Shown here: piece by piece, positions 437-19,238 of the stretch
Layout of the letters: every line of letters begins with the position of its first letter
How positions within the stretch are numbered: position 1 is the first letter of the stretch
Assembly (NCBI GenBank): GCA_019459485.1
Contig: JAIBEZ010000098.1
Span: 62,001-126,000, forward strand
DNA: 64,000 nucleotides
Reading direction: 5' to 3'
Source of the DNA: Prolixibacteraceae bacterium
GTDB lineage: Bacteria; Bacteroidota; Bacteroidia; Bacteroidales; Prolixibacteraceae
Program-made: the position numbers and the translations under genes
The notes under the pieces: generated by a model
What the model was told of the DNA's origin: nothing
What the model saw: the letters and a program-made list of their open reading frames with translations, nothing else
Database searches by the model: none

Positions 437-507
437 CAGATTGCAATAATGGAGGTTGAGAGAAAGTACAGTAAGGTTTCCGCTGGTTAATTAGTTAGCG
501 GTAAGTT
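437..507 (+). repeat. right arm of cassette site 1
   Basis: This stretch aligns over about 70 bases with 1381-1451. Shared blocks are GAGAGAAAGTA, AGGTTTCCGCTG and a terminal GTTA..GG.AAGTT. The terminal 14-mer at 494-507, GTTAGCGGTAAGTT, is the reverse complement of AACTTACCGTTAAC at 1124-1137 with one mismatch, so the two bracket the genes at 543 and 895. Confidence 0.75.
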
Positions 508-542
508 TAAGAACGAGCAACTTAATCACATAATCATAAACT

Positions 543-893
543 ATGAAACTGGAAGATTTTATTTATGAAAGTATTACTCAGATAATTAGTGGAGTAAGAA
601 AAGCTCAAGATTTTGCTTCACAAAATGAAGCTATGATAAATCCAGCATCTTTGAGACAAAGCCAATCTTCTGGAAATATATACTATGATGATGACACATA
701 TAGACCAGCACAAATAATTGATTTTGATGTTTCTGTATCCACAAGAGAAGATGGAGAGACATCAGGGAAAGCAGGTGTTTTCGTTTCAGTATTAAAACTT
801 GGAGTGGAGGCAAAAGAGGGAACACAAAACCTAATTTCAAATAGATTAAAATTCTCGGTGCCACTTATGCTACCGACTCAAAACAACAAATAA
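543..893 (+). CDS. hypothetical protein, Trypco2-like fold possible (cassette 1 cargo)
   Basis: The 116-residue protein has no signal peptide or membrane segment. An N-terminal helix (about residues 1-28) is followed by a polar linker (29-55) and a beta-rich half (56-110) with the pattern IDFDVSVST, then GVFVSVLKLGVEA, then NRLKFSVPLMLP. That layout resembles the trypsin-co-occurring domain 2 (Trypco2) family, small beta-sandwich-like proteins often encoded near peptidases or defence genes. This is recognition by eye and is not certain. The gene starts 35 bases after cassette site 1. The next gene begins one base after its stop, so the two are probably translated together. Base composition is clearly more AT-rich than the chromosomal genes to the right, as expected for acquired cargo. 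Confidence 0.6.
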   Translation: MKLEDFIYESITQIISGVRKAQDFASQNEAMINPASLRQSQSSGNIYYDDDTYRPAQIIDFDVSVSTREDGETSGKAGVFVSVLKLGVEAKEGTQNLISNRLKFSVPLMLPTQNNK

Positions 894-894
894 T

Positions 895-1122
895 ATGACT
901 GAAAGTAAATTTAAAGTAGGTGACAGAGTTTTTCATAAATCAGATTTTACCGTTATTTGGGTAATTGAAAGAATCAATGAAACTGAAGCATTCTGCTCAA
1001 CTCTCTTAAAAGATTCTAAAAAGCTTGTCAAAGAAAACCTTTCACTAAACTCAATAGTTCAAGTTGAAGACAATTCAGCTACATTAATTATAGGGTCTAG
1101 AAGAAGGAATAATTATTATTAA
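895..1122 (+). CDS. small hypothetical protein, SH3-like N-terminus
   Basis: The 75-residue protein opens with KFKVGDRVFHKSD and then IWVIERI, a pattern typical of small SH3-like beta-barrel proteins (for example YodC or DUF2158-type). Family membership is a guess. There is no signal peptide and the C-terminus is basic (GSRRRNN). The start codon follows the stop of the upstream gene after a single base, which argues for coupled translation and a shared role. The TAA at 1120-1122 sits one base before the inverted-repeat end of cassette site 2. It is the second cargo gene of cassette 1. Confidence 0.6.
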   Translation: MTESKFKVGDRVFHKSDFTVIWVIERINETEAFCSTLLKDSKKLVKENLSLNSIVQVEDNSATLIIGSRRRNNYY

Positions 1123-1123
1123 A

Positions 1124-1451
1124 AACTTACCGTTAACATTTAGCTACCCGTCAAGTGCGGCAACGGTGGTTTTCGGGGTGCATCTTTCCGCCCGTTCCCG
1201 GTTAACTGGGTTTGACAGGCAATTGGCACTTTTTAGCAAGGGATTTATAATCCGAACAAAAGGAATGGTTGAAACGAACATGATAGAAAGGATAGACGGA
1301 TCACAGATCAGTAATCAAATAAGTGCTGATCGCCAACCAGCGCCAGCAGCTTTGAACAACATGGCTGCATATATGAAGGAGCAGAATGGAATAGTGGAAA
1401 TCGAGAGAAAGTATGGTGAGGTTTCCGCTGTATGGTAGTTATGGGCAAGTT
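1124..1451 (+). repeat. complete cassette site 2 (328 bp, inverted-repeat ends)
   Basis: The left arm (1124 to about 1222) aligns with site 3 (1985 to about 2080): shared blocks include CTACCCGTCAAGT, GTGGTTT, ATCTTTCCGC and TCCCGGTTAAC. The right arm (1381-1451) aligns with site 1. The outer ends AACTTACCGTTAAC and GTTATGGGCAAGTT are inverted repeats (11/14). Partial pairing continues inward, CTACC...GCGG.AAC on the left against its complement on the right, giving a bulged stem of roughly 40 bases closed by a long middle of about 160 bases. The site is more GC-rich than the cargo. A 90-codon open frame at 1166-1438 lies wholly inside it and is probably fortuitous. Confidence 0.7.
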
Positions 1452-1478
1452 GATTATACACATTAAAAAAATAAAAGT

Positions 1479-1985
1479 ATGATGCACACAGTTCTCACAT
1501 GTTTAAATATAATTTTTGCTTTCGCATTCATTATATTTTTGGGATTCCTATACACACAGATTAAAAATGAAAGTGGTAAATGGACAGCTCTTTTGGTTTT
1601 ATTAATTGGATTAGCTTTTATCAACATTAATAGCCCTGACTCGAACATTGATAACCATAAAAAGGAATTCATACTATATGATTGTCCTTCTATTAAATCC
1701 AATAGAAATCTGGAGATTGAAAGCAAATTTGGAAGTTTAATCACAATTCATCATATATTGGACATTTATGTTCCCCAAGATAAAAGTGACTCAATTATTA
1801 GTATTGTTGGTCAGAATTCATATGTGACTGGCTTAACTTCAGGATTTAAATTTGAAGTTTCAAATATTAAATTAGAACAAACAAACGACAATAAAATAAA
1901 ATACAGAGTCAGGATTAAGTCGAGTATTCGTCTATTTGGACTATGGAATTACAGTGAATTCCAAACTTTAGTTGGGGAAAAATGA
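1479..1985 (+). CDS. hypothetical two-helix membrane protein (cassette 2 cargo)
   Basis: The 168-residue protein has two hydrophobic helices at about residues 4-26 and 36-52. A polar domain follows, rich in beta-type segments such as YRVRIKSSIRLFGLW, probably on one face of the membrane. No family was recognised. Start is ambiguous between two adjacent ATG codons at 1479 and 1482. The gene starts 27 bases after cassette site 2, and its TGA at 1983-1985 overlaps the first base of the site 3 inverted repeat. That is the compact packing seen for cassette cargo. Base composition is strongly AT-rich compared with flanking housekeeping genes. Confidence 0.6.
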   Translation: MMHTVLTCLNIIFAFAFIIFLGFLYTQIKNESGKWTALLVLLIGLAFININSPDSNIDNHKKEFILYDCPSIKSNRNLEIESKFGSLITIHHILDIYVPQDKSDSIISIVGQNSYVTGLTSGFKFEVSNIKLEQTNDNKIKYRVRIKSSIRLFGLWNYSEFQTLVGEK

Positions 1986-2080
1986 ACCTGCCTATAACAT
2001 CTACCCGTCAAGTTCAGCAGCAGTGGTTTCCGGTGTGTATCTTTCCGCTCGGTCCCGGTTAACCGGGATTGACAGAAAAT
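1985..2080 (+). repeat. left arm of cassette site 3
   Basis: Homologous to the left arm of site 2, but about five bases shorter just after the terminal repeat. The end AACCTGCCTATAAC (1985-1998) is the reverse complement of the start of cassette 2, GTTATGGGCAAGTT, with two mismatches. No right arm follows before the tRNA region, so the site is truncated or the array ends here. Confidence 0.7.
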
Positions 2081-2151
2081 CGCGCACAGGTCGGAAATGC
2101 ACAAAGTGTTCTATTTTATGGGCTTGTTTGCGTGCAGTTGTGCAAATTAAT

Positions 2152-2937: not shown

Positions 2938-3627
2938 ATGGAACTCAAGAAATCACCCAAAGCAGATCTCGAGAACAAGAGGAATATCTTTGTTCAGCTA
3001 GGGTTGGTGGTCGCTCTTGCTATCTGTTTGTACGGTTTTGAAGCAACCAACAAGGTTAGCCAGGTTGATTCTCTCGGATCAATGACTGACCAGGCAGTAG
3101 AAGAAGAGATTATTCCAATAACCCGTCAGGATCAGGTACCACCACCACCACCACCACCACCACCCAAAGTGGTTGATATGTTGGTGATTGTTGATGACAA
3201 TACCGATATTCAGGACGAATTGGAAATTGAAGATTCGGAAGCAACCGATAAAACTGCAATTACAGCTGTAATGCAGGTTGCTGCTCCTAAAGAAGAAGAA
3301 AATGAAGACACTCCGGTATTTTTCATCGTAGAAGAAATGCCTGAATTCCCGGGTGGTCAGTTGGCTTTGCGTAATTTTATCGCACAGTCGGTTAAGTATC
3401 CGGTTATTGCACAGGAAAACGGTATTCAGGGAAAAGTATTTGTAAATTTCGTTGTGGAAAAAGACGGAACAATAAAAAATGCAAAAATATTCCGTGGGGT
3501 TGACCCTTCTTTGGATAAGGAAGCTTTGCGCGTTGTAAACAGTCTTCCAAAATGGAAACCTGGGAAACAAGGTGGAAAAGCGGTAAGGGTTTCTTACACT
3601 GTTCCAATCAACTTTGTACTTCAGTAA
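2938..3627 (+). CDS. tonB: energy transducer TonB
   Basis: TonB couples the proton gradient, through ExbB/ExbD, to outer-membrane TonB-dependent transporters. The 229-residue protein has one N-terminal membrane anchor (about 18-36) after a short basic cytoplasmic tail. A periplasmic linker follows with nine prolines in a row (residues 68-76) and an acidic stretch (86-103), then a C-terminal TonB_C domain (about 135-229) with EMPEFPGGQLALRNFI, YPVIAQENGIQGKV and the conserved ending SYTVPINFVLQ. No exbB or exbD gene is nearby. A second tonB of the same layout lies at 5203, with hflX between them, so this is a dispersed duplication. The proline run is encoded by eight CCA codons plus CCC and may vary in length. 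Confidence 0.92.
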   Translation: MELKKSPKADLENKRNIFVQLGLVVALAICLYGFEATNKVSQVDSLGSMTDQAVEEEIIPITRQDQVPPPPPPPPPKVVDMLVIVDDNTDIQDELEIEDSEATDKTAITAVMQVAAPKEEENEDTPVFFIVEEMPEFPGGQLALRNFIAQSVKYPVIAQENGIQGKVFVNFVVEKDGTIKNAKIFRGVDPSLDKEALRVVNSLPKWKPGKQGGKAVRVSYTVPINFVLQ

Positions 3628-5202: not shown

Positions 5203-5889
5203 ATGGAACCCAAAAAATCTCCCAAAGCAGATCTCGAAGGCAAAAGGAAATTCTTTTTCGAATTAGGGTTGATTCTGGCAATTGCAATCTGTTTGTATGG
5301 TTTCGAATTTACAACTAAGAAGAAACCGCTAATTTCTCTTGGAACCCTCGACAAAAATGCGGCTGTTGAAGAGCTAACTCCATTGGTTCGTCTGGAGGAA
5401 GCTAAGCCGATCATTCCACCGCTGCCAAAAGTAGCTGACCTAATTCTAATTGTAGAGAATGATACAGAACTCGACGAAGAACCAGACATTAAAGATTCAG
5501 GAGCTGATAAACACACTGCAATTTATGCTGAGCCAGAATTGCCTGTCCGCAAGGAAGTTGAGAAAGATGAAACTACAATTTTCTATGCTGCGGAAGAAAT
5601 GCCGGAATTTCCGGGCGGATATCAGGCATTACTGAACTTTTTGAGTCAGAATATTAGATACCCGTCGATTGCTGCTGAAAGCGGTATCACCGGAAAAGTT
5701 ACTGTTAATTTCGTAGTAAATAAAGATGGTTCAATTTCTGATGCGACAATACTTCGTGGAGTTGACCAGGCCCTTGATAAAGAAGCATTGAGGGTAATTA
5801 ACAGTTTGCCAAAGTGGAAACCAGGCAAACAGGCAGGCAAACCTGTACGTGTTTCTTTTTCAGTTCCCATTAATTTTAAACTTCAATAA
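5203..5889 (+). CDS. energy transducer TonB (paralogue)
   Basis: The 228-residue protein is laid out like the tonB product at 2938. The N-terminal tails match closely (KKSPKADLE..KR), as do the membrane anchor (about 18-36, AICLYGFE) and the TonB_C domain (about 134-228) ending SFSVPINFKLQ. The linker differs: the long proline run is replaced by PIIPPLPKVADLI, so only short proline pairs remain. The two copies have diverged mainly in the linker, which sets reach across the periplasm. They may serve different outer-membrane transporters, which is an inference. It lies 285 bases after hflX and ends at a strong bidirectional terminator shared with asd. Confidence 0.92.
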   Translation: MEPKKSPKADLEGKRKFFFELGLILAIAICLYGFEFTTKKKPLISLGTLDKNAAVEELTPLVRLEEAKPIIPPLPKVADLILIVENDTELDEEPDIKDSGADKHTAIYAEPELPVRKEVEKDETTIFYAAEEMPEFPGGYQALLNFLSQNIRYPSIAAESGITGKVTVNFVVNKDGSISDATILRGVDQALDKEALRVINSLPKWKPGKQAGKPVRVSFSVPINFKLQ

Positions 5890-7144: not shown

Positions 7145-9076
7145 ATGACCAAAAATAACTGTTTACTTTTAATTTTTCCTAAAACAGGTGGATTTATTTT
7201 TATTTTCGCAATAATAGTTGTCTATTTATTAACAACTGTAAGCAAAACTGCATTTGGCGAGAATAATACCATTCTAAATCTTTCAGCAAAAATAGAAACC
7301 TTCTCCGGAAAAGATACCGTCATTTCCATTTTCAAAGAAGATTTCGAATCAGGGAATCTTTCAGGATGGAAACAAACAGACGATTGGGAGGTTTCGGCTT
7401 CAGAAAAAATCGCAGGAAATTTCTCACTTAAACATTTATCAAAACCCATAAGTGGCAATTCATCCCTATTTCACAATGTTTCTGCTGATCTGAATCTTGT
7501 GGATTTGGAATGGGCGTTTACATTCAAAAACGGGAAATGGGATCCATCTTCATCCAATCGGTTTTTGTTTTACCTGACTGCCGATACAATCGTGCCCGAC
7601 CTGATTAACGGTTATGCGGTGGGCGTAAATATTTCAGGAACAAGCGATTTGCTCAACCTCTGGCGCATCAGAAAAGGGAAAGCCGACAGTCTCATTGTTC
7701 AAACAGATATGGATTGGAATGGATCGAATTTGGCAACGATTAATGTAAAACGAACAACCCGGGGAAAATGGACTTTGAATTACCTGAAATCAGGAGAGAC
7801 AAATCTGAAATCATTTTCGGGAACTGATCGCAGCCAGTTTAGCTTTAAGAATATCGGAATCACGTTTAAATATACCGCTACCCGCTCCGGACAGTTGTGG
7901 ATCGATGATGTCTCGGTATCACAACTTGCTGCCGAGCTTTTCATACAGGAACTTGCGTTCATAAATCCACATTCTATTCTGCTAACTTTCAACAAGCCAA
8001 TAAACCCAGCTTCAGTTCGCTCCGGAAATTTCATTCTGACTGATGAAAACAACCGGAATATTTCAGTTACCCAAGCCAAAATAATGGCTGGCTCCGACAA
8101 TTCAATTGAATTGAGCTTTGGAAATGTCGACGGAATTGAACTTCGTTTATCAGTTTCGGGGATTTCAGATCTTTCAGGAAAGATCATAAGTCCAGAGATT
8201 CGAACTTTTTCCTATTCTTTTTCTCCGGAAGTTGGAACCATCCTCATCAACGAAATTCTGTTCAATCCTTTTTCCGGAGGAGTTGACTTTGTTGAGTTGG
8301 TCAATGTTTCAGAAGTTCCTGTGCCCATTCACCGTTTAAAACTTGCAAGTAGAAATGATACGCTGGCACTGAAACAAATCTATCCTGTCAGCACTGAAGA
8401 AAGGTATTTGTATCCGGGGCAATTCTTGGTGTGCACGAAAGATTCGGCCATCGTTGCAGCTCAGTATTTCACAAGCGATCCGGAAACTTTTTGCCTGATG
8501 AAAACCCTGCCCAGTTATTCGGATGATGCAGGGACGGTGGTTTTACTGAACGATTCGCTTGAAGTGATCGATGAATTCAGCTACTCAGCCAAAATGCATT
8601 CAACTTTTTTGGCGGATGAAAATGGCGTTTCGCTCGAACGCATTTCGCTGGAAAAGCCAACTTCTGATCGCAGCAACTGGGCATCAGCTGCATCATCGGT
8701 TGGGTTTGCCACGCCTGGATTACCGAATTCACAAATTGAAAGTGAAACTGAAATTCAGGATGAAATTACCCCCGAGCCCAAGGTGTTTTCGCCCAATGGC
8801 GATGGGCACAACGATGAACTTACAATTAAATACAGTTTCGGCAAACCCGGTTATATTGCCAATGTCAGGATTTTTGATGCGATTGGCCGGCAAGTGAAAT
8901 TCATTACAAAAAATGAATCGCTGGCACAGGCAGGAAGCTGGTTGTGGAATGGAGAAAGTGACTCCGGTCAAGAGCTCAATCTGGGAGTTTTCATCATTTT
9001 GGTTGAAGTTTTTGACGAGGATGGACAAGTAAAAAGATTCAAAAAGACTTGCACAATTGTTGATCGGCTGGAATAA
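7145..9076 (+). CDS. secreted lamin-tail-domain protein with SPNGDG C-terminal domain
   Basis: The 643-residue protein has an N-terminal hydrophobic segment (about 14-34) that should act as signal or anchor. A jelly-roll-like region (about 60-260) follows, starting FKEDFESGNLSGWKQ, then an Ig-like segment (about 268-360). A lamin-tail domain (about 363-515) starts GTILINEILFNP. The end (about 545-640) is a FlgD/CHU_C-like domain with FSPNGDGHND and the WNGESDSG turn typical of Bacteroidota secreted proteins. The role is not known; lamin-tail domains often accompany secreted nucleases or adhesins, but no catalytic domain is seen here. It is a lone gene, convergent with the four-helix-bundle gene at 9087. 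Confidence 0.8.
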   Translation: MTKNNCLLLIFPKTGGFIFIFAIIVVYLLTTVSKTAFGENNTILNLSAKIETFSGKDTVISIFKEDFESGNLSGWKQTDDWEVSASEKIAGNFSLKHLSKPISGNSSLFHNVSADLNLVDLEWAFTFKNGKWDPSSSNRFLFYLTADTIVPDLINGYAVGVNISGTSDLLNLWRIRKGKADSLIVQTDMDWNGSNLATINVKRTTRGKWTLNYLKSGETNLKSFSGTDRSQFSFKNIGITFKYTATRSGQLWIDDVSVSQLAAELFIQELAFINPHSILLTFNKPINPASVRSGNFILTDENNRNISVTQAKIMAGSDNSIELSFGNVDGIELRLSVSGISDLSGKIISPEIRTFSYSFSPEVGTILINEILFNPFSGGVDFVELVNVSEVPVPIHRLKLASRNDTLALKQIYPVSTEERYLYPGQFLVCTKDSAIVAAQYFTSDPETFCLMKTLPSYSDDAGTVVLLNDSLEVIDEFSYSAKMHSTFLADENGVSLERISLEKPTSDRSNWASAASSVGFATPGLPNSQIESETEIQDEITPEPKVFSPNGDGHNDELTIKYSFGKPGYIANVRIFDAIGRQVKFITKNESLAQAGSWLWNGESDSGQELNLGVFIILVEVFDEDGQVKRFKKTCTIVDRLE

Positions 9077-9086
9077 AAATTCAAGG

Positions 9087-9650
9087 TTACTTTCTTCTAT
9101 CAAGTCGCATTCGGGTCATTCGTTCCCGCATTCCGCCATTTTTCAGGAAATCTTCACTGAGCGATTGCAATTGTTTAAACAACATATAATCGTTCTGCTT
9201 GATCAGACAAATCGCCATGTTTGCAATCGTTTCCGGAGGACGGGTCTTCACCAGTTGCATATAAAAGGCAGAATCGTTGTGTTTTCTGCCAAGCTCACGC
9301 ATCTTCATGAGTTCCACCGAGCGATCCTCCCACTGACGGTGATTTCTGGTACGCAGATAGTCTTCATAATCAATCAGAAGTTCATGCATACTTGCTTTGG
9401 CAACATTCACCAGCTTTATCTCAGTCTCCTTCGATGTTGCCGAAGCCGCACTACCTTCTACAATATTTTGTTTGCCTGAACGGGCAGCCTGAACCATTTG
9501 GTCGACAGTGCGGTCCCCCCGCTGCAAATAATTTTTACAGAAATAATAGGTAATGTCGTATATTGCTTCGGCTTTCTGGTAGGTGTACAATTTTCGGTAA
9601 TTTCCGGTTCGCGGTAACAGTGGTTCCTGGTTTTGCTGGTTGTTCTTCAT
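9087..9650 (-). CDS. four-helix-bundle suffix-domain protein (S23/IVP-like family)
   Basis: The 187-residue protein contains the helical S23/intervening-sequence-protein signature: LYTYQKAEAIYDITYYFC, then MVQAARSGKQNIVEGSAA, then an EIKLVNVAKASMHELLIDYEDYL helix pair. The family was first met within 23S rRNA intervening sequences but is usually free-standing in Bacteroidota and has no firmly assigned role. The extra C-terminal 80 residues match the longer suffix-domain subgroup. The gene is single, convergent with the gene at 7145 (10-base gap), and has a long inverted repeat upstream at 9681. Confidence 0.82.
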   Translation of the reverse strand: MKNNQQNQEPLLPRTGNYRKLYTYQKAEAIYDITYYFCKNYLQRGDRTVDQMVQAARSGKQNIVEGSAASATSKETEIKLVNVAKASMHELLIDYEDYLRTRNHRQWEDRSVELMKMRELGRKHNDSAFYMQLVKTRPPETIANMAICLIKQNDYMLFKQLQSLSEDFLKNGGMRERMTRMRLDRRK

Positions 9651-9680
9651 TATTTCAGGTATTTGCTGTTTGTATTTTTT

Positions 9681-9725
9681 AAAGTCCTTAAGGTCCCTAA
9701 AGTCATTGAGGACCTTAAAGACTTT
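9681..9725. repeat. 16-bp stem inverted repeat between divergent genes
   Basis: AAAGTCCTTAAGGTCC (9681-9696) pairs with GGACCTTAAAGACTTT (9710-9725) with one mismatch, around a 13-base loop. It lies between divergent promoters rather than after a gene. It could be an operator, a REP-like repeat or a cruciform. Confidence 0.7.
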
Positions 9726-17720: not shown

Positions 17721-19238
17721 TCATTCCCAAATCGATTCAGTAATTGCCTGACTGCTCGTCTGGTATTCGAGAAATAAATCGGGATTTCCGCAGACCTGCA
17801 CCAAAGCCGCCAGAGTAACATCGTAATTATACATGGCTTGCAAACGTTCGATTTTTACTTTGGCAAAGAGAAGATTGGCATCTACCAATTCGGTTGAAGT
17901 GGATAAACCTTCATGAAAAGCTTTCTCACGGCTATCCACATAGGTTTTGGCAAATTCGAGCATTTTATCAAGTTCTTCCAGTTGTTCCACCTGCATTCCG
18001 AGTTGCTGGTGCAGCTTTTTGATGACAGTTTTTATGTCTTCCCCGGCTTTCATGCCAGCCTGTTCCACCTGATCTTCCTTGAATTTGGCAGCCTGAAGAT
18101 TGCGGTAACGCGAATTGCCTTCAAAAAGTGACCATTTCAGGCCAACGCCCACCAGCCAATCGGGTACGAATGGGGATAAATCCTTGTTGGCCAGATCGTA
18201 AGTTCCGGTAAGCGCAACCGTAGGCAAATAATTGCTTTTTTCGAGTTTCACGCCGGTTGCAGCCAGTTCTCTTTTCGAATCAACCTGCTTTAATTGCGGA
18301 TTATTTTCCATGGCCATTTTGATGAAAAAATCTTCATCTTCAATACTTTTCAGGATAAAGAGTTGACTTGCCGGAATTAAATCGCTGCTGTCGCCCACGG
18401 CCATTGTATTTTGAAGCGCCCGTTTTACAATGGTCGCCTCGCGTTTGGCTTTTTTCAATTCACGCCCGGCATCTGAGCTTGCAACCTGGGCGTGCAAATG
18501 CTCCACTTTGGCAATTTGTCCCTGTTCGCTCAACTTCTCCGAATCGAAAAGATGCTTCTTCATGGCCTCCGAAACCTGTTCCCGAACTTTGCAAGCCTGT
18601 TCAGCCAGCACCAGTCCGTAATAGCGGGTTGCCAGTTCGCTCAGTAGTTCGCCCTGTTTTTGTTCCTTCTCCAACCCGGCTTCTTCTTCATAAATTGCTG
18701 ATGCCTTGTTGGCTGCATTAATTTTTCCGCCGGTGTACAAAGGCCAGATGAAATTGGCATTTACAGCCGCGAATTGTTTTTCCTGAATCATTTTATCCCA
18801 TTCCGCGGCATTTATGGCTGCCTGTCCTTCCTGAATTTTTCCGCGCAAAACCTGGGTGCTGACATTGTCGGGTAAAATCGGCATCACGCCTGAAGTCGCT
18901 GGATCGGGATTTGGAACACCGGAGAAATTGCCGTATTTGCCCAAAGCTTCATAAAGTGGGTTAATTGCATCGCGCACCGGAGTGAGGTCGAGTGTGAGCG
19001 GATCAGCCATCTGTACTGCATTTGCGGTAATGAAAACGCGTGGAGCACGCAGTCCGAATGCCGCTTTTCTATCGGCTTCTTTTTCGCGGATTTCAAATCC
19101 AGCCTGTTTCAAGACGTGACTATTCTGGTTCATTTGCTCATAGGCATCCGAAAAAGTCAAAGGGTTGGTAGCTCGTTCCTGACTGTTTACACTGAAACTA
19201 ATCAGCATCAGCGTAACGATCGTAATAATCTGCTTCAT
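17721..19238 (-). CDS. TolC-family outer-membrane efflux protein
   Basis: The 505-residue protein has a signal peptide (about 1-19, IITIVTLMLISFSVNS) and two TolC/OEP repeats rich in long heptad-like helices, including LSELATRYYGLVLAEQ and LEKSNYLPTVALTGTYDL. It is the outer-membrane channel of the efflux system whose adaptor and permeases follow, and the first gene of the operon. The opening RATNPLTFSDAYEQMNQNSH is typical of the family. Confidence 0.92.
   Translation of the reverse strand: MKQIITIVTLMLISFSVNSQERATNPLTFSDAYEQMNQNSHVLKQAGFEIREKEADRKAAFGLRAPRVFITANAVQMADPLTLDLTPVRDAINPLYEALGKYGNFSGVPNPDPATSGVMPILPDNVSTQVLRGKIQEGQAAINAAEWDKMIQEKQFAAVNANFIWPLYTGGKINAANKASAIYEEEAGLEKEQKQGELLSELATRYYGLVLAEQACKVREQVSEAMKKHLFDSEKLSEQGQIAKVEHLHAQVASSDAGRELKKAKREATIVKRALQNTMAVGDSSDLIPASQLFILKSIEDEDFFIKMAMENNPQLKQVDSKRELAATGVKLEKSNYLPTVALTGTYDLANKDLSPFVPDWLVGVGLKWSLFEGNSRYRNLQAAKFKEDQVEQAGMKAGEDIKTVIKKLHQQLGMQVEQLEELDKMLEFAKTYVDSREKAFHEGLSTSTELVDANLLFAKVKIERLQAMYNYDVTLAALVQVCGNPDLFLEYQTSSQAITESIWE

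Follow-up and report, generated by a model that had tools for sequence, protein, structure and literature searches.

What kind of element is a run of small, co-oriented genes set between long repeated sites, with no integrase beside it? The question is raised by the first two kilobases of a stretch of 64,000 nucleotides (hereafter, the window, meaning all the DNA analyzed) from contig JAIBEZ010000098.1 of a Prolixibacteraceae genome (assembly GCA_019459485.1). An earlier note, made from the sequence alone, had described positions 437-2080 as an integron-like cassette array without integron core sites and without an integrase, and had wondered whether it belonged to a distinct system of the Bacteroidota.

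Repeats, sites, and cassettes in the window

The repeats at 437-2080 are real, and far above chance. When the window is compared with itself, 1144-1223 matches 2001-2080 (80 nt, 84% identity) and 435-485 matches 1380-1430 (51 nt, 82% identity); the same genome holds 21 more matches to this region, the best with an E value of 3.5e-24. Three genes, all on the plus strand, are located between the sites: 543-893 (116 aa) and 895-1122 (75 aa), followed by 1479-1985 (168 aa, with an N-terminus that appears hydrophobic by eye). Searches against Pfam and PADLOC assign none of the three to a family at E≤0.01. The description of conserved repeats bracketing two AT-rich cargo segments that run in one direction is thus borne out.

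The count of three site copies (right arm only, full, left arm only) needs one correction. The first copy, at 435-493 on the plus strand, is indeed a truncated attC-like site that consists of the 3' arm and carries the 51-nt repeat shared with 1380-1430. The third copy, taken for a left arm, is a full-length site: attC-like site 2 (1988-2127, plus strand; L018:13989-14128 in the search) matches the 142-position site model from end to end with 86.9 bits. Between them, attC-like site 1 (1123-1452, plus strand) is flanked by complementary ends and has a site-model match of 53.2 bits over 1128-1263. By comparison with 15 aligned sister sites, which measure 137-147 nt and have short flanks, it is unusually long.

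As for core sites, the triplets expected of them are present: AAC (R'') at 1135-1137 in site 1 and at 1996-1998 in site 2, and GTT (R') at 1438-1440 in site 1 and at 494-496, where the first cassette begins. The R' of site 2 is degenerate (TTTATGGGC near 2115). The statement that integron cores are lacking therefore fails for the AAC and GTT triplets and for the cassette-specific complementary ends described below, and it holds beyond the triplet, where the window cores do not keep the full canonical R-box consensus.

These cores divide the region into two cassettes on the plus strand. Cassette 1 (495-1438) consists of two small genes and their own attC-like site; cassette 2 (1439-2116) consists of one gene and its own site, and we infer its 3' limit, R' there being degenerate. 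A 15-nt inverted repeat with 93% complementarity (494-508 vs. 1123-1137) makes up the two ends of cassette 1. Counted beyond the core, complementarity between a cassette's own ends is 10/11 for cassette 1 and 9/11 for cassette 2, whereas unrelated pairings average 4.58.

An inverted repeat that bounds a segment in this way is also what one would look for in a composite transposon or in MITE-like elements with terminal inverted repeats. Ordinary transposon ends, however, are common to all copies, whereas here the inverted repeat varies from cassette to cassette and finds its best match in its own partner. Moreover, no ORF of the window cassettes matches a transposase family, and we regard a transposon of either kind as most improbable.

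Elsewhere in the genome, some of the cassette cargo (toxin-antitoxin, Fic, and caspase-like genes) hints at a pool of defence-like genes. Those with Fic-domain and caspase-like products that are carried by cassettes on another contig (L009, G000:C60, at 18219-19001 and 8213-9724) have weak to moderate matches to defence models.

Several features surround the cluster. A series of 41-bp tandem repeats (GGAGGAAGGTTTT...) occupies approximately 1-205, just ahead of the cassettes, and continues upstream of the window. A tRNA-Ala gene (ggc) lies at 2202-2276 on the minus strand, and a 33-nt near-copy of part of it lies at 2345-2377, where no tRNA is called. Farther on, a gene that by eye resembles hflX lies between two genes akin to each other (2938-3627 and 5203-5889, with 70% DNA identity over 160 nt) and, again by eye, TonB-like.

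Cassette ends, folding, and variation

When the site copies of this genome are aligned, each starts with AAC (R'') and ends with GTT (R'), and the sequence outside is divergent. Over approximately 15 nt, the end of a cassette is complementary to that cassette's own beginning. Across 12 cassettes of the window's genome, whose ends were defined by hand and which leave out one cassette without a start and those beside visibly degenerate sites, own-end complementarity averages 7.0/11 against 4.58 for other pairings, a value reached in 1 of 200,000 permutations. A larger set, in which the ends were defined by the model and not chosen by hand, gives the same answer: of 93 R1 matches, 87 were usable and yielded 65 cassettes, and the 59 distinct ones, from five genomes, score 6.49/10 with their own ends, 3.64 with those of others (0 of 20,000 permutations), and 3.54/10 within the linear site. 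The pattern extends to 20 type-A cassettes (5.95 vs. 3.15; 0 of 20,000 permutations), a set from which a regular expression dropped 16 sites and matches below 60 bits were left out; types A, B, and C are the recombinase types discussed in the next section.

In integron cassettes, the start is complementary to the cassette's own end, with an R box of approximately 7 nt. The complementarity seen here is this same rule, lengthened to approximately 15 nt. Such own-end complementarity is expected if the circular cassette, and not the linear array, is the substrate. Because its start and its end are complementary, a circular cassette could form an extended R-box stem that is impossible for the linear array; it would be excised and inserted between the G and the TT of the R' triplet.

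Evidence that the sites themselves fold is less uniform. The window site has no excess folding (z of 0.30 and 1.31), sister sites are mixed (z from 0.10 to -1.98), covariation for the proposed hairpin in linear sites does not exceed that of shuffles, and RNAalifold returns no long hairpin from the sites. The proposed hairpin structure does pair far better than slid versions of the same structure. In 11 sites from plasmids of Rufibacter and Pontibacter, arm complementarity is 8.2 within a site and 5.2 between sites (0 of 20,000 permutations), with the own score inflated by the choice of arm pairs according to their best own run. Support for a hairpin in sites of the window's type is weak, and the sites may be recombined by a folded single-strand mechanism. 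A stretch with GGTGGTTT(T)CGG may resemble the Vibrio VCR. Elsewhere in the genome (L016, G000:C7, at approximately 10000, 11100, and 12050), a repeated, terminator-like TAATGGGATTTTGG stretch precedes each of three degenerate site fragments; the array sites differ.

Variation of the cargo at this locus and a search for the sites in related genomes were among the checks proposed at the outset; the locus does vary, and related sites do occur in other genomes. In relatives G310 and G788, the left permease flank and the right tRNA-Ala flank lie 66 bases apart and the insert is absent; by comparison of the flanks, the missing segment covers 1-2192, begins approximately 207 bases before the window, and includes the 41-bp tandem repeats. 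It is important to remember that these are the two relatives, among 16 genus loci, in which both flanks were found (G788 having 10% contamination), and that the left flank does not show at the other 14, which give no information on occupancy. None of the 16 loci has a site at this position at E 0.1. The DNA of the first cargo segment occurs in 1 of 140 family genomes, namely its own.

The sites, by contrast with that cargo, are not confined to one genome. The site model has matches in at least 35 of 100 genomes of the family and at least 27 of 295 of the order; the window's genome counts among both, and please note that these are lower bounds, few candidates having been scored per genome. A pattern scan of public genomes returned 82 stretches, and the 80 listed come mostly from metagenome-assembled genomes named Prolixibacteraceae, Bacteroidales, Bacteroidia, or Bacteroidetes/Bacteroidota, with a few named Lentimicrobiaceae, Flavobacteriales, Sunxiuqinia, Draconibacterium, or Tangfeifania. 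One IMG/VR contig also carries a site core (L317, 11096-11121).

Cassettes appear, in addition, to have been copied and shared. The array of G377 contains seven pairs of matching stretches longer than 300 nt with 92.6-98.7% identity, which are duplicated cassettes. G321 and G387 have one cassette in common at 98.5% identity, as against 87.9% for their integrase genes; similarity climbs at R'', where neighboring sites are alike anyway, and in G387 the site of the shared cassette is broken just past R'', with an IS110-family transposase gene downstream. Such duplication and sharing speaks, if indirectly, for circular cassettes that an integrase would excise and insert.

All this bears on the idea that we are looking at static dispersed intergenic repeats, REP-like or terminator-like, with no mobility. 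Sequence within the sites is highly conserved, when most attC are not, and folding is weak, as that idea would have it. Against it stand the cassette-specific complementary ends, the single direction of the genes, the duplicated cassettes in G377, the cassette common to two genomes, and presence or absence at the locus, and we consider it very unlikely. Static-repeat, transposon-end, and REP-like readings are all disfavored because the inverted ends are cassette-specific. The integron logic read into the locus is upheld by the cassette layout, the single direction, the complementary ends, and the variation.

Recombinases at the heads of related arrays

If these are cassettes, what moves them? 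In G377, a complete genome of the same genus, a tyrosine recombinase of 578 aa stands at the head of an array of 21 such sites and points in the array's direction. Members of the system that are intact would have an IntI-related tyrosine recombinase, insert-less and N-terminally extended, in the orientation of the cassettes; from sequence, it is this enzyme that would catalyze the reaction.

The position of the recombinase relative to repeats supports its place at the head. Around 28 recombinases of at least 330 aa, dispersed direct repeats are commoner downstream at 19 loci, upstream at none, and tied at 9 (sign test, 3.8e-6), with the caveats that the upstream stretch is shorter than 8 kb at nine loci (L212 and eight list neighbors) and that the length cut is a proxy for the N-terminal domain (L262 was scored as lacking it, although the motif is present in a shortened frame). 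Four recombinases below 330 aa average 0.5 repeats downstream and 1.5 upstream, and have end-complementarity scores of 9, 6, 8, and 8. A GTT-started sequence after the integrase stop, with a complementary partner of at least 10/12, occurs at 19 of 32 heads versus 2 of 256 control windows (no comparison was obtained in 6 of the 256); the other 13 heads fall under the 10/12 mark for complementary ends of the first cassette. Among 16 recombinases from other classes and families of the phylum (L256-L275), 9 have more repeats downstream and 8 reach 10/12, so the head-of-array pattern is not confined to the window's family.

What follows the stop codon is conserved. At seven type-B loci it is ACTAG/TT in five, AGTAG/TT in one, and ACAAG/TT in one (the slash marks the putative crossover); past G/TT, the sequence is divergent in six and the contig of G386 ends. 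Of nine type-A loci, six have in common a stretch of approximately 100 nt that ends in TAG/TT; the other three have ACG/TT instead, and more distant loci AAG/TT, GAG/TT, or TTG/TT. TAG/TT is thus found at 6/7 type-B heads, the AGTAG variant counted, and 6/9 type-A heads. We read this stretch as an attI-like site, which would lie within approximately 130 nt downstream of the recombinase stop and in which the crossover would probably fall at G/TT. G364 has an R1 site (131.7 bits) after a type-C integrase, and the R'' of this site is complementary, at 11 of 12 positions, to the start beside the attI-like stretch.

Relatives shorter than the G377 protein are found heading cassette arrays in further Bacteroidota chromosomes and on three plasmids, those of Rufibacter tibetensis, Pontibacter kalidii, and Chryseobacterium sp. 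SNU WT5. On each plasmid, genes of the same orientation come after the recombinase; all three contain an IS110 transposase and one contains a group II intron. IS110-family transposase genes lie in Bacteroidota cassette arrays at L216 12039-13013, L221 18645-19622, L314 15962-17020, L315 11880-13235, and L316 13272-14273, and group II introns at L217 12967-14235, L220 8520-10404, and L316 15738-17054; the intron of L220 interrupts an attC-like site. attC is reportedly a target of group IIC introns (PMC7923331) and, by the titles of two papers, of IS1111-family elements.

Across family genomes, the link between the type-B integrase and the sites is moderate. Sites occur in 7 of 9 genomes with this integrase and 28 of 91 without it (p=0.008), or in 8 of 11 versus 27 of 89 if two further fragments are counted (p=0.015). 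Two of the nine, G316 and G367, have no site match, and most site-bearing family genomes, the window's included, are without a type-B integrase.

The protein itself is related to IntI. The closest solved relative of the type-B protein is the integron integrase 2A3V (E 8.3e-47), with a match that is split: where IntI has residues 174-245 (72 aa), the type-B protein has 30 aa. The same gap, at the IntI-specific insert (the patch III region), recurs when nine type-A and two type-B proteins are aligned with two IntI of the order, and the type-C sequences listed are equally short there. An N-terminal extension of approximately 80-290 aa, often with a W-S...W motif, precedes the catalytic part and has nothing beyond a weak DUF5710 match. 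A structure prediction for the type-B recombinase, from two sequences, was too poor for use (pLDDT 43, pTM 0.27).

Against the integron-integrase model TIGR02249, whose cut-off is 265 bits, type B scores 234.4 and 217.7, type A 211.1, and type C 200.0, all four below it; type B has 165-177 bits with the XerC/XerD models. Against NF040815 (cut-off 220), type A lies above with 222.2 bits, followed by type C with 213.8 and type B with 208.6 and 203.5, so that types A and C score slightly higher with NF040815 than with TIGR02249 and only type B prefers the latter. A tree of 29 rows places types A, B, and C with IntI in one group against XerC/XerD with support of 100/99; it has two outgroup rows and no XerA, long branches in it were flagged, and it does not fix the inner order. 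Recombinases were counted in 107 of 395 genomes, a lower bound, with few candidates per genome, in which recombinases lacking the N-terminal part are counted too.

The window as a probable orphan, and known systems

The absence of an integrase, claimed for the window, holds there and, as far as the searches reach, throughout the assembly; it does not hold for the system, since relatives have a recombinase and an attI-like site heading their arrays. In the window's assembly, no IntI passes the cut-off, and integrases of types A, B, and C are absent: the top matches to the model of these types are XerD (188.1 bits) and an XerC-like protein (137 bits). The IntI searches used a per-stretch cut of E 1e-45 for order and 1e-40 for family genomes, and "no IntI" here means no IntI at full cut-off; because the match of insert-less relatives splits in two, a per-stretch cut hides them.

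Wear is visible in what remains. Of 24 sites in the window's genome, 10 keep both cores intact, versus 52 of 63 in G377, G349, G386, and G295 (p 3.8e-4), and own-end complementarity is 4.53/10 versus 7.28 in G377 and 7.31 in G349 (p 8.5e-4), a comparison biased by setting all matching contigs of the window's genome against selected regions of the relatives. Decayed cores and lower own-end complementarity fit a cluster left without its integrase. CALINs are defined by at least two attC sites with no integron integrase nearby, and the window has two sites and a 3' arm in this state. We infer that its cassettes came from a recombinase-headed array of this kind. The explanation we hold to be probable is that 494-2127 is a two-cassette, CALIN-like orphan beside tRNA-Ala, stranded from a Bacteroidota integron variant with an insert-less integrase.

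Could it be an ordinary CALIN, that is, standard IntI cassettes moved in trans by a canonical IntI, with the recombinases at array heads a coincidence? CALINs outnumber IntI in Bacteria, according to the portion of PMC9668308 available, and a canonical IntI is present in 5 of 295 genomes of the order and 5 of 100 of the family. However, R1 sites at E 1e-5 are missing from all five family genomes in which an IntI passes the full cut-off, so that none of the 35 site-bearing family genomes has such an IntI, and the recombinase found at array heads, with a conserved attI-like stretch after it, is the insert-less one. We think the ordinary CALIN improbable, if less so than static repeats or transposons.

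For the stranded-variant reading, the hunch of a distinct Bacteroidota system gains support from the related sites in family genomes and from the recombinase and attI-like site at the head of relatives' arrays. We lean, by a little, toward a broader claim: that there is a phylum-wide class of Bacteroidota integrons whose integrases never had, or have lost, the insert thought necessary for folded attC, the N-terminal domain possibly substituting for it; that, grouping on the IntI side of the tree, they may retain a stage through which integrons arose; and that finders that require the insert would file these arrays as CALINs or miss them.

In the available parts of PMC9668308 and PMC9024848, the IntI-specific domain is called defining and necessary and forms part of IntegronFinder's integrase criterion; by these criteria, the program would not call the present recombinases IntI. 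An integrase without that recognition domain means that such systems may be missed by current finders. The available text of PMC4792948 ties the contact between the I2 helix and attC to avoidance of second-strand cleavage. Earlier finds in Bacteroidetes were In0 only, as far as the available part of PMC9024848 goes, with a single complete integron in Bacteroidetes proper, that of Salinibacter ruber; by a count of terms, the main text of PMC8352920 makes no mention of Bacteroidetes. Among the matches listed from open-licence PMC literature, which leaves preprints outside, no title or abstract opening describes Bacteroidota integrons with insert-less integrases. If insert-less integrases do run Bacteroidota cassette arrays, integron prevalence in the phylum is underestimated, and the question of how recombination of folded, single-stranded sites arose in an Xer-like enzyme becomes testable by setting the two integrase types against each other on common sites.

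How, then, does the system compare with those already named? An integron-like subgroup of simple tyrosine recombinases is known, and the available part of its source (PMC8138268) describes no cassette arrays or attI for insert-less members. The model NF040815 (recomb_XerA_Arch, "site-specific tyrosine recombinase/integron integrase") fits in that type A exceeds its cut-off and one plasmid member is so annotated, but it is a broad, automatic name that the XerD of the window's genome also passes (228.9 bits). The window cluster resembles a CALIN in lacking a nearby integrase, and searches of its genome turned up none of this type; it differs from one in that relatives' arrays of the same site type are headed by a dedicated, non-canonical recombinase.

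The closest comparison is with canonical integrons of class 1 or of the Vibrio superintegron type. The likeness lies in the one-direction array, the AAC/GTT cores, and the own-end complementarity, in a recombinase and attI-like stretch that head the array (in relatives' arrays, not in the window), and in a type-B protein whose best NCBIfam model is TIGR02249 and whose best solved relative is an IntI. Unlike the canonical enzyme, the Bacteroidota recombinase has no IntI-specific insert, stays below the TIGR02249 cut-off (200.0-234.4 vs. 265 bits), is N-terminally extended by approximately 80-290 aa, and is oriented with its cassettes, whose ends are complementary over approximately 15 nt, as against an R box of approximately 7 nt, and whose sites share much of their sequence.
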